Below are positions 12,386-43,962 of a DNA stretch of 64,000 nucleotides, one piece after another. The stretch comes from Cellulomonas sp. SLBN-39 (GTDB lineage: Bacteria; Actinomycetota; Actinomycetes; Actinomycetales; Cellulomonadaceae): NCBI RefSeq assembly GCF_006715865.1, contig NZ_VFOA01000001.1, positions 1,364,001 to 1,428,000 of the forward strand. Reading direction: 5' to 3'. A program made the position numbers and the translations under genes. The first letter of the stretch is position 1, and each line of letters starts with the position of its first letter. Below the pieces are notes generated by a model. It was not told the DNA's origin and ran no database searches. It saw only the letters and a program-made list of their open reading frames with translations.

Positions 12386-12634
12386 GTGCCCGAGTCGAAG
12401 TCGCGCAAGAAGGCGACGTACACGCCTCCGCCCACCAAGGCGTCCGCGCCGAAGCCGCTGCCGCGGTGGTTCCTGCCGACGTCGCTGGGCCTGATGATCT
12501 TCGGTCTGCTGTGGCTGGTGACGACGTACCTGACGAGCACGGCGTACCCGGTCGGGGCCCTCGGCCAGTGGAACCTCGCGGTCGGGTTCGGCTTCATCAT
12601 CGTCGGGTTCGGCATGCTCACGCGGTGGCGCTGA
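12386..12634 (+). CDS. crgA: CrgA cell division protein
   Basis: CrgA is a small septum-associated membrane protein that helps recruit FtsI and other divisome or wall-synthesis proteins. The 82-residue product has a basic, Pro-rich N-terminus and two membrane segments (about 29-49 and 62-79), as in the family. The GTG start has a GAGGAG at 12373-12378. It stands alone on the plus strand between a divergent DUF881 gene and the convergent rhomboid gene, close to the fha/pkn operon as in other actinobacteria. Its downstream region carries an unusual DnaA-box cluster. Confidence 0.93.
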   Translation: MPESKSRKKATYTPPPTKASAPKPLPRWFLPTSLGLMIFGLLWLVTTYLTSTAYPVGALGQWNLAVGFGFIIVGFGMLTRWR

Positions 12635-12639
12635 GCCCG

Positions 12640-12725
12640 TCGTCCACAGGGTGACCGACTTACCCACAGCCTCATCCACAGGATGAGGGGCCTCGTCCCC
12701 ACGTCGTGCACAAGCGTGTGGATAG
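12640..12725. promoter_or_regulatory. Cluster of four DnaA-box-like 9-mers
   Basis: Four 9-mers, each one base from the DnaA box consensus TTRTCCACA, lie within 86 bases: TCGTCCACA at 12640-12648, TTACCCACA at 12660-12668, TCATCCACA at 12672-12680 and, on the other strand, CTATCCACA at 12717-12725. The cluster sits between the ends of two convergent genes, about 30 kb from dnaA. DnaA-titrating clusters outside oriC are known in E. coli (datA) and reported in Streptomyces; function here is inferred. Confidence 0.5.
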
Positions 12726-12739
12726 TTACACCGGTGGGA

Positions 12740-12787
12740 TTCCCCAGGTCGTGAGCACTGTTCCCCAGGTGTGAGCAAACCTGGGGA
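12740..12787. repeat. Direct repeats plus inverted repeat of a TTCCCCAGGT motif
   Basis: TTCCCCAGGT followed by (C)GTGAGCA occurs at 12740-12757 and again at 12761-12777. The second copy forms a 9-bp inverted repeat with ACCTGGGGA at 12779-12787 (loop of eight bases). Similar TGGGGAC motifs recur in oriC at 41870-41917. It could be a protein-binding site or, for the final hairpin, the end of a transcript. Confidence 0.5.
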
Positions 12788-12872
12788 CGGTCATACCCGG
12801 GCGAATCGGGCAGCACCCCGCGTAGCCCGCGCTCCGCCCCTGCGGCCGTCGTCGGACGGACCCGGGCGGGGG

Positions 12873-13778
12873 TCAGACGAGGCCGACGGCGGCGTAGGCC
12901 ACGAGCGTGGACACCACGAGGACGGCGCTGACGGCCACGGTGGCGCCCACGGCGACGAGGGTGCGGCGCTCGCGCGGGGCGTAGGCGTAGGCGGCCCCCA
13001 GGGCGGCGCCGACGAGCAGGCCGCCGAGGTGCGCCTGCCAGGCGACGTTCGGCAGGACGAACCCGAGGACGCCGTTGATGACGAGGATGCCGACGATCCC
13101 GCCGGCGTCACGGCCCAGGCGCCGCAGCACCACGAGGACGGCGCCGAAGAGGCCGAACACGGCACCCGACGCACCGACGATCCACTGGTCCCAGCCGAGC
13201 AGGGGGGCCAGCAGCACGGCGGCGACGGAGCCGCCGATCGCGCTGAGCAGGTAGAGCGTGGCGTAGCGCGCCCGCCCGAGCGTCTGCTCGAGGTACGGGC
13301 CGACCATCCACAGCGCGATCATGTTGAACAGGATGTGGAAGATCTGCCCCGAAGAGTGCAGGAACGCCGCGGTGAGGAAGCGCCACGGCTGGTAGGCGCC
13401 GTACACCGGGTTGAAGATCCACGCTCCGGTCCACCAACCGACCACCAGCTGGGCGACGTAGCTCGCAGCGCACAGCGCGATGATCGTGATCGTCACGACC
13501 GGGCGGCCCTGGTGCAGGCGCCCGCCGAAGACGGTGCGCCCCGTGCGGACGGTCTTCGCGGCGGCGGCCACGCAGTCCACGCAGTGCACCCCCACTGCCG
13601 CGGGGCGCTGGCACTCCGGGCAGGCCGGGCGCGCGCACCGCTGGCAGCGGACGTACGCGACGCGGTCGGGGTGCCGCGGGCACACGGGCTCGGCGGCGTC
13701 CGACTGGTGCGGGCCCGCCCCGGGCAGCCCGCCGCCCGCCGCCGCCGGGTCGGCGGGGCGGGCGGGGGGCTCGGGCAC
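12873..13778 (-). CDS. Rhomboid intramembrane serine protease with N-terminal Cys/His-rich domain
   Basis: Rhomboid proteases cut membrane helices. From GTG 13778 the product has 301 residues. Residues 33-69 hold a B-box-like set of metal-binding candidates (Cys33, 45, 48, 53, 56, 66, 69 and nearby His). The six-helix rhomboid domain follows, with catalytic Ser204 in GASG and His250 in the last helices, and Asn152. The start is uncertain: GTG 13778 has no Shine-Dalgarno, whereas a GAGGA overlapping the end of ppiA is well spaced for a non-standard ATC codon eleven codons upstream. The gene lies directly downstream of the cyclophilin gene. Confidence 0.88.
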   Translation of the reverse strand: MPEPPARPADPAAAGGGLPGAGPHQSDAAEPVCPRHPDRVAYVRCQRCARPACPECQRPAAVGVHCVDCVAAAAKTVRTGRTVFGGRLHQGRPVVTITIIALCAASYVAQLVVGWWTGAWIFNPVYGAYQPWRFLTAAFLHSSGQIFHILFNMIALWMVGPYLEQTLGRARYATLYLLSAIGGSVAAVLLAPLLGWDQWIVGASGAVFGLFGAVLVVLRRLGRDAGGIVGILVINGVLGFVLPNVAWQAHLGGLLVGAALGAAYAYAPRERRTLVAVGATVAVSAVLVVSTLVAYAAVGLV

Positions 13779-13807
13779 GGACGGGCCCGGGGCAGGCGTG
13801 CTGATGA

Positions 13808-14347
13808 TCAGTCCTCGACGGTGACCGACGTGAGGACGACGTCCTGGACCGGACGGTCGCCGGGGCGCACGGGCGTCGTCGCGATCGCGTCGACGACCGC
13901 ACGGCTCGCGTCGTCGGCGACCTTGCCGAAGATCGTGTGCTTGCCGTTGAGCCACGTCGTGGCCGCGACGGAGACGAAGAACTGCGAGCCGTTGGTGCCG
14001 CCGACCTTGCCGGTCACGGGGTCCATGCGCTTGCCGGCGTTGGCCATCGCGAGCAGGTAGGGCTCGTTGAAGCTGAGCTCGGGGTGGATCTCGTCGTCGA
14101 AGGTGTAGCCCGGGCCGCCCCGGCCGTTCCCGAGCGGGTCGCCGCCCTGGATCATGAAGCCCTCGATGACGCGGTGGAACACGAGGTCCTTGTAGAGCGG
14201 GTCGGTGCGCGGCTGGCCGGACGTGGGGTCGGTCCACTCGATCGTGCCCTGGGCGAGACCGACGAAGTTCTCGACGGTGCGCGGGGCGTGGTTCTCGAAG
14301 AGCTCGACCCGGATGTCACCGGCGGAGGTGTGGATGGTCGCGAACAT
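13808..14347 (-). CDS. ppiA: Cyclophilin-type peptidyl-prolyl cis-trans isomerase
   Basis: This 179-residue protein catalyses proline isomerisation during protein folding. It has no signal peptide, so it is cytoplasmic. The cyclophilin core is complete: FHRVIEGFMIQGGD near residues 58-71, NGSQFFV near 122 and the GKHTIFGKV segment near 140, and the length is typical for the family. It starts with ATG 14347 and is divergent from the gene at 14462. The rhomboid gene follows on the same strand after a short gap, and the same pair is found together in other actinobacteria. Confidence 0.93.
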   Translation of the reverse strand: MFATIHTSAGDIRVELFENHAPRTVENFVGLAQGTIEWTDPTSGQPRTDPLYKDLVFHRVIEGFMIQGGDPLGNGRGGPGYTFDDEIHPELSFNEPYLLAMANAGKRMDPVTGKVGGTNGSQFFVSVAATTWLNGKHTIFGKVADDASRAVVDAIATTPVRPGDRPVQDVVLTSVTVED

Positions 14348-42280: not shown

Positions 42281-43888
42281 TCAGCCGCGGTGCTGCTGCT
42301 TGATCCGGTTCGTGAGCTCCGTGACCTGGTTGTAGATCGACCGTCGCTCGGCCATCAGCTCGCGGATCTTGCGGTTCGCGTGCATGACCGTGGTGTGGTC
42401 GCGGCCGCCGAACGCCTGCCCGATCTTGGGCAGCGAGAGGTCGGTCAGCTCGCGGCACAGGTACATCGCGATCTGCCGCGCGGTCACCAGGACGCGGGAG
42501 CGGCTCGACCCGCACAGGTCCTCGATGCTCAGACCGAAGTAGGCGGCGGTCTGCCCGATCACCGTCGTCGCGGTGATCTCCTGCGTCTGGTCGTCGGTGA
42601 TCAGGTCCTTGAGGACGATCTCCGCCAGCGTGACGTCGACCTGCTGACGGTTGAGGTTCGCGAACGCGGTGACCCGGATGAGCGCACCCTCGAGCTCACG
42701 GATGTTGGTCGAGATCTTCGACGCGATGTACTCCAGCACGTCGTGCGGGGCCTGCAGGCGCTCGCTCGCCGCCTTCTTGCGCAGGATCGCGATGCGGGTC
42801 TCGAGGTCCGGCGGCTGGACGTCGGTGATCAGGCCCCACTCGAAGCGCGACCGCATCCGGTCCTCGAAGCCGTTCAGCTGCTTCGGCGGCACGTCGGAGG
42901 TGATCACGACCTGCTTGTTGGCGTTGTGCAGCGTGTTGAAGGTGTGGAAGAACTCCTCCATCGTCTGTTCCTTGCCCTGCAGGAACTGGATGTCGTCGAT
43001 GAGGAGGACGTCCACCTCGCGGTACCGGCGCTGGAAGGCGCCCGCCCGTCCCTCGGAGATGGAGTTGATGAAGTCGTTGGTGAACTCCTCGGAGTTCACG
43101 TACCGCACGCGCACGGCCGGGTAGAGGTTCTGCGCGTAGTGGCCGATCGCGTGCAGCAGGTGCGTCTTGCCCAGCCCGGAGTCCCCGTAGATGAACAGCG
43201 GGTTGTAGGCCTTGGCCGGGGCCTCGGCCACCGCGACCGCCGCCGCGTGGGCGAAGCGGTTCGAGGATCCGATGACGAAGGTCTCGAAGAGGTACTTCGG
43301 GTTGAGCCGTGCCGGCTCGGCGGTCGCGGTGCGCCGCGCCGGGCTGAGGTCCTCGACGGCGCGCAGCGTCGCGCGGTCGCCCGGCAGGGGCCCGCGCCCG
43401 TCGTGACGGTCGTCGTCGTCGAACGCGTCGTCGCGCCCGTGCAGCGGCCGGGGCTGGCCGGCGTGCTGCTGGGGGAGGTGCGGCTGACCGTTGCGGCCGT
43501 CGTGAGAGCCGTCGTGCCCGTCGTGGCCCAGCCGGACCGGGGCCCCGCGCTCGGACGTGAGCGCGTCGGACGCGCGGACCGGTGGAGCGGGGACGACCCG
43601 CAGCGCCGGCGGGACGTCGCTGGCGATCTCAGGGTCGACGGTGATCGCGAACCGGGCCTCGCGGTCGAGCGCCTGGCTGAGCGCCCCGGTGACCTCGTCG
43701 CGCACGCGCGTCTCGAGGTACTCCTTCGTCAGGTCGTTGCCGACCGCGAGGATCATGGTGCCGTCGAGGATGCCCAGCGGGTGGGCGAGACGGACGAACG
43801 CGAGCTGGCGCGGCGTGATGTCCGGGCTCGCCTCGAGGGTCTGCACGACGTGCCCCCACACGCGGGCGGGTTCTTCGTCCTGTGACAC
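42281..43888 (-). CDS. dnaA: Chromosomal replication initiator DnaA
   Basis: DnaA binds DnaA boxes and opens oriC. The 535-residue protein has domain I (about 1-95), a His/Gly/Asp-rich disordered domain II (about 110-200), AAA+ domain III with Walker A GDSGLGKTH and the Walker B LLIDDIQFL, and a DNA-binding domain IV with the signature GGRDHTTVMHANRKI near 494. The GTG start at 43888 gives the actinobacterial N-terminus. Two perfect DnaA boxes 54-74 bases upstream suggest autoregulation. It is divergent from rpmH. Confidence 0.98.
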   Translation of the reverse strand: MSQDEEPARVWGHVVQTLEASPDITPRQLAFVRLAHPLGILDGTMILAVGNDLTKEYLETRVRDEVTGALSQALDREARFAITVDPEIASDVPPALRVVPAPPVRASDALTSERGAPVRLGHDGHDGSHDGRNGQPHLPQQHAGQPRPLHGRDDAFDDDDRHDGRGPLPGDRATLRAVEDLSPARRTATAEPARLNPKYLFETFVIGSSNRFAHAAAVAVAEAPAKAYNPLFIYGDSGLGKTHLLHAIGHYAQNLYPAVRVRYVNSEEFTNDFINSISEGRAGAFQRRYREVDVLLIDDIQFLQGKEQTMEEFFHTFNTLHNANKQVVITSDVPPKQLNGFEDRMRSRFEWGLITDVQPPDLETRIAILRKKAASERLQAPHDVLEYIASKISTNIRELEGALIRVTAFANLNRQQVDVTLAEIVLKDLITDDQTQEITATTVIGQTAAYFGLSIEDLCGSSRSRVLVTARQIAMYLCRELTDLSLPKIGQAFGGRDHTTVMHANRKIRELMAERRSIYNQVTELTNRIKQQHRG

Positions 43889-43941
43889 GTCCTACCTCGG
43901 GGTGCTCGTCCAGCGGGCTGCGAGTGTGGCACCGCCCGGCG

Positions 43942-43962
43942 TTGTCCACAAAGTTGTCCACA
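43942..43962 (+). promoter_or_regulatory. Two perfect DnaA boxes upstream of dnaA
   Basis: TTGTCCACA occurs exactly at 43942-43950 and 43954-43962, twelve bases apart and in the same orientation. The matches are better than most boxes in the dnaA-dnaN gap. They lie between dnaA and its likely promoter, where DnaA binding could repress its own gene or form part of the origin. Confidence 0.85.

Follow-up and report, generated by a model that had tools for sequence, protein, structure and literature searches.

A DnaA-box cluster and palindrome beside crgA: probable local copy of a class-wide actinobacterial extra-origin DnaA control site

The box cluster and the anatomy of the element

What might a tight group of DnaA boxes be doing behind a cell division gene, well away from dnaA? 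The question is raised by the window (the whole 64-kb stretch of Cellulomonas sp. SLBN-39 DNA analyzed here), in which such a group occupies the gap of about 238–245 bp between crgA, coding for the cell division protein CrgA (12389..12634, forward strand; Pfam PF06781, 101 bits), and a convergent gene for a rhomboid family protease (12873..13829, reverse strand; PF01694, 107 bits). A cyclophilin-type PPIase gene, the counterpart of M. tuberculosis Rv0009 ppiA, lies next to the latter (13808..14347, reverse strand; PF00160). The dnaA gene itself (42281..43891, reverse strand), whose identity is backed by PF00308 and PF08299, is about 29.5 kb from the gap, in agreement with the 30 kb given in an earlier sequence-only reading of this DNA.

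That reading was correct in reporting four DnaA boxes within 86 bp, each with one mismatch to TTRTCCACA: TCGTCCACA (12640..12648), TTACCCACA (12660..12668) and TCATCCACA (12672..12680) on the forward strand, and TGTGGATAG (12717..12725) on the reverse strand. A weak box-like sequence on the reverse strand, CGTGCACAA (TTGTGCACG; 12705..12713), stands in a 12-bp register with the last of these, and within its region GGTGCACA is almost invariant among relatives. The clustering, likewise claimed earlier, exceeds chance: the window holds 10 one-mismatch matches to TTRTCCACA, the four in the crgA gap being the sole dense cluster, and when the window was simulated 300 times with a first-order Markov model, no 86 bp held more than two boxes. 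The further claim that this gap is richer in boxes than the dnaA–dnaN gap holds for this genome (counting boxes with at most one mismatch to TTNTCCACA, the 245-bp gap behind crgA has four and the 900 bp after dnaA two) and fails in relatives, where both gaps have similar numbers.

The boxes at the right end of the cluster belong to a conserved element of about 95 bp (12694..12788, forward strand; contig 1376694-1376788), which is recognized by a sequence model, R1, with E=2.9e-9. Its core dyad, AGTTACACCGGTGGGATT (12724..12741), agrees at 12 of the 14 specified positions with the consensus core dyad of the element, AAYNACACNNGTGTNRTT, both being 18 bp long. The right half carries two copies of TTCCCCAGGT (starting at 12740 and 12761), the repeats noted earlier for their likeness to GTCCCCAG/CTGGGGAC, which are indeed present in the dnaA–dnaN gap. 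Comparison with relatives suggests that the pair is one 21-bp tandem duplication (12740..12770, forward strand) inside the conserved element. The region of the right arm also includes an inverted repeat, TCCCCAGGTGTG/CAAACCTGGGGA (12762..12787), with no T-run after it.

Across relatives, dyad and boxes form a composite of fixed geometry. Of the 114 loci with a good dyad, 97 have their nearest outward-facing DnaA box running into its edge by 1–2 nt (2 nt exactly in 83, 1 nt in 14); because the outer TT belongs to both dyad and box, this agreement is to a minor extent inherent. A second box facing the same way typically follows 12–13 bp beyond the first, and an opposite box often comes about 10 bp after that. 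The window copy is a diverged member: the box at 12717..12725 shares 2 nt with the edge of the dyad, but the dyad is imperfect, all boxes are imperfect, and it has extra upstream boxes as well as the 21-bp duplication.

The presence of inverted repeats between genes that are convergent in most members might point to a bidirectional terminator, with the likeness to DnaA boxes a by-product of its hairpin. Several observations make this quite unlikely. A terminator scan found no G+C-rich stem with a T-run at the element, and the fold z-score is just −1.4 on both strands. Moreover, at the variable dyad positions 4/15 and 9/10 pairing is no commoner than expected of independent columns and at 3/16 it is moderately more common; this mostly uncoupled variation is more in keeping with a DNA dyad bound by protein than with a folded stem, and covariation gives little sign of a hairpin or RNA structure. 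A bidirectional stem would also have no need of fixed box offsets, and the Mycobacterium copy lies upstream of Rv0010c and not between convergent gene ends. An Rfam search returned no real match, a blastn search against plasmids no match, and a scan of the same genome with a short degenerate pattern was too loose to be informative.

Conservation from genus to class

The sequence-only reading had proposed looking for the same cluster at crgA in other Cellulomonas genomes. Among 60 same-genus genomes searched for crgA, 57 were positive, and in the best 30, whose DNA behind crgA was read, the element lies downstream of crgA in 29 (weakly in one), while in the 30th, G049, it is one gene further from crgA. 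A sequence close to GTCCCCAGYGGTGCACAAGTCTGTGGATAACTACACNNGTGTAGTTCCACAGGTGTGAGNAACNNTGGGGACG is found in almost all 30 loci. In two (L015 and L022) the element is inverted relative to crgA, and another (L030) combines a weak element match with a second, similar copy.

Beyond the genus, R1, a sequence-only model built from element copies of 20 other genomes, matches 289 of 396 genomes of the order, representing 81 of 109 genera. The best 30 of these loci, from several families, all fall within the crgA–rhomboid interval, as do most of the R1 matches retrieved at the class level. Of 30 class genomes picked mostly for lacking an R1 match, 25 had two or more boxes no further than 300 nt from crgA, a number seen in just 1 of 210 control tiles. 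A second class sample, drawn for the most part evenly, reached the same threshold in 27 of 35 loci and had the dyad in 23 of 35. The crgA gene itself was present in 40/40 class genomes sampled. The element is conserved between crgA and the rhomboid gene across the class Actinomycetia. A few genomes (L261, L270 and L335) have no boxes at crgA, and none convincing were found elsewhere in L261 and L270; the large f37 genomes L260 and L262 do have boxes beside crgA.

The element is a unit separable from crgA. In G049, the two are set apart by about 1.5 kb of intervening sequence that includes a gene, and the element remains by the rhomboid gene with E=6e-22 (this gene-carrying extra sequence of locus L018 spans G049:C18:25606-27072). 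In G467, crgA is far off and the element is still by the rhomboid gene, and two small f44 genomes have the dyad and boxes by the rhomboid gene with no crgA nearby.

The element site lies 10–47 kb from dnaA, on the dnaN–gyrA side. When 100 kb around dnaA was scored for dyads in 11 genomes (164 kb in the case of our genome), the crgA dyad came top in 11/11; the window dyad is the top-scoring one in its 164 kb, and the sole tie was with a dyad in one dnaA–dnaN gap. These data bear on whether the cluster is a second or true origin, one half of a bipartite origin, or the relic of an origin copy. Its box density is at least that of the dnaA–dnaN gap in this genome and GC skew is compatible with an origin, though the four-fold-site skew in 11 genomes is too weak an effect to place one. 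However, in relatives a separate set of conserved boxes occupies the dnaA–dnaN gap, the dyad is missing from 10 of 11 such gaps, and in M. tuberculosis oriC and the site between Rv0010c and Rv0011c are separate DnaA peaks (PMC7738170). We therefore regard an origin as highly improbable. The earlier suggestion of a relic fares no better: the element is under conservation, its class-wide retention is not expected of a relic, and, with the dyad in just one of 11 dnaA–dnaN gaps, its whole arrangement is unlike that of the proposed oriC parent.

A mycobacterial counterpart and probable extra-origin control of DnaA

The slot beside crgA is also occupied in Mycobacterium. In the loci compared, which include M. 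leprae, not H37Rv, dyads of the AATCACACGCGTGTGATT type are followed by TTATCCCCA and TGTGGATAA; in one of them (L092), the dyad stands 66 nt before the next gene start, ATGCAGCAAAC. We take Rv0011c of M. tuberculosis to be crgA and Rv0009 to be ppiA, which is consistent with the flanks of these loci. On one contig of Mycobacterium numidiamassiliense (NZ_FUEZ01000004.1), crgA loci L145 and L146 have identical match statistics and lie about 74 kb apart in opposite orientation, reflecting either a duplication of the origin region or an assembly artefact.

The gap between Rv0010c and Rv0011c of M. tuberculosis is bound by DnaA in vitro, as established by IDAP-seq and EMSA (Hicks et al. 2020, PMC7738170), and the homologous M. 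smegmatis site is bound in vivo by ChIP-seq (PMC7738170). The sequence-only reading, which saw no other known role for this gap, is hence mistaken as regards the M. tuberculosis homolog. Clinical strains recurrently carry mutations in a palindrome that lies 65 bp ahead of the Rv0010c start, and mutants with SNPs at the site have longer cells and isoniazid tolerance, as do dnaA mutants; in the latter, the expression of both Rv0010c and Rv0011c and the rate of initiation are unchanged (PMC7738170). The mycobacterial site was reported to have "no obvious correspondence" in other species (PMC7738170).

The window site shares with it an intergenic, ori-proximal position directly downstream of crgA with a PPIase gene near, and the combination of a palindrome (the 12/14 dyad) with a DnaA-box cluster, one box of which abuts the dyad. 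On this likeness of place and sequence, we identify the window element as the positional counterpart of the M. tuberculosis site. The two differ in that the window has a rhomboid gene convergent with crgA, whereas the Mycobacterium element is upstream of Rv0010c; the imperfect dyad, the extra upstream boxes and the duplication are further differences, and DnaA binding is predicted for the window. The other published mycobacterial DnaA sites, namely oriC, the dnaA promoter and the region upstream of dnaB (PMC7738170), account for the remaining main box clusters around dnaA in the genomes studied here, supporting the reading of such clusters as DnaA sites. In the window, the dnaA promoter region has two perfect TTGTCCACA boxes (43942..43962, forward strand), a second class of DnaA site common with M. 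tuberculosis. A dnaB-adjacent box cluster matching a mycobacterial DnaA site is seen at about contig position 1452740 of the same genome and in several relatives; some of the dnaB genes, including that of our genome, have an apparent intein-like insertion after "PAIGKA".

Class-wide conservation at crgA, together with the experimentally mapped mycobacterial counterpart, strongly supports a predicted extra-origin DnaA-binding locus. Accordingly, we consider it very probable that in this cluster the window carries its copy of an extra-origin DnaA control site, composite in design, that actinobacteria have class-wide. We propose that DnaA would assemble on the ordered boxes, that a partner protein bound to the dyad would position or gate this assembly, and that the resulting complex might alter how much DnaA competent for initiation is available near the origin. 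This would be analogous to the pairing of boxes with IHF at E. coli datA and with IHF/Fis at the DARS loci.

As to the direction of action, the mycobacterial dyad mutations mimic weakened DnaA by giving longer cells, which leads us to favor a positive, DARS-like action over titration, by analogy with phenotypes from another order of the class, in which the initiation rate was unchanged in dnaA mutants. DARS1 and DARS2 of E. coli similarly have ordered DnaA boxes outside oriC with a partner protein site beside them. The DARS core comprises three boxes at fixed spacing, of which box I points against boxes II and III; in many class members, two boxes 12–13 bp apart face one way and a further one faces the other, while the window copy has box1 with weaker neighbors. 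DARS promotes the release of ADP from DnaA, and the likening of the element to it is by box arrangement and putative partner site.

The site might instead be a datA-like or passive reservoir, which titrates DnaA or promotes ATP hydrolysis and thereby restrains re-initiation after early duplication. This we hold as a tentative possibility; being one way in which such a control site could act, it does not compete for probability with the control-site reading. Like datA, the element groups DnaA boxes in an intergenic region close to the origin, with a putative partner-protein site beside or among them, and this closeness to the origin is seen in complete genomes; in most members it lies between convergent genes, with datA being downstream of glyVXY and queG. 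Clusters restraining initiation are also reported for Streptomyces coelicolor and B. subtilis (cited in PMC5742627), the former being, like ours, an extra-oriC DnaA-box cluster in an actinomycete (Smulczyk-Krawczyszyn et al. 2006, cited therein). However, the partner site of datA is an IHF site between boxes and that of the element an 18-bp dyad; datA promotes hydrolysis of DnaA-ATP, as the element might in this mode. The few boxes offer little for passive titration, and the mycobacterial palindrome mutants have longer cells like hypomorphic dnaA alleles, a phenotype that does not point to over-initiation and is unlike the loss of a repressor. Of the earlier proposal of a datA-like reservoir, then, the extra-origin DnaA locus stands, with the datA mode being one of several and the phenotypes leaning toward DARS.

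Actinobacterial DnaA control outside oriC has so far been little understood, and the element may put the recurrent clinical mutations associated with isoniazid tolerance in a new light. A second cluster in our genome (2055071-2055159; L286 1570-1658), with three perfect TTGTCCACA and one TCGTCCACA within 90 bp, lies about 650 kb from dnaA between D-aminoacyl-tRNA-deacylase-like and macrodomain-like ORFs.

Recurrence of the dyad at whiB and the putative partner

The dyad pattern was found in 42 of 148 class genomes as compared to one for the reversed control, and several copies away from crgA precede a WhiB-family gene (PF02467). Upstream regions of whiB have a dyad matching at least 11 of 14 positions in 30/30 genomes, whereas the control tiles (n=210) never exceeded 10; in our own genome, a perfect dyad, AACGACACGCGTGTAATT, lies upstream of a whiB gene (3036116-3036133; L171, L303). 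This recurrence suggests that the dyad is probably the operator of a regulator.

Could the element then be only an operator for crgA or the rhomboid gene, its DnaA boxes being incidental? The whiB copies, and others upstream of dnaB and NlpC/P60-type genes, would fit such a role. Nevertheless, in most members the element is behind both genes, boxes abut the dyad in nearly all loci, and in mycobacteria DnaA binds directly and Rv0010c and Rv0011c expression is unaffected in dnaA mutants (PMC7738170); hence, we consider this unlikely.

Within the DnaA control site favored here, the whiB association points to a partner that probably regulates septation too, a process governed by class II WhiB proteins (PMC6282962). 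We give an even chance to the idea that one conserved actinobacterial regulator binds both the whiB promoter and the DnaA site, tying DnaA control to division class-wide. If so, the recurrent M. tuberculosis palindrome mutations would strike the site of the partner and not a DnaA box. The class-wide composite with its fixed geometry and whiB-recurring palindrome provides a defined DNA bait for this partner, and brings the mechanism within reach of harmless laboratory species.

BldD is a lead as the dyad binder: its half-sites resemble those of the dyad, with a center one base shorter. WhiA fits poorly, as its site is an asymmetric GACAC bound by a monomer (PMC3781837), and so does MtrA, the motif of which is a direct repeat (PMC6265350). 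In three loci of one genus, g144 (L188, L189 and L190), the dyad is upstream of a gene whose start resembles an NlpC/P60-type cell-wall hydrolase.
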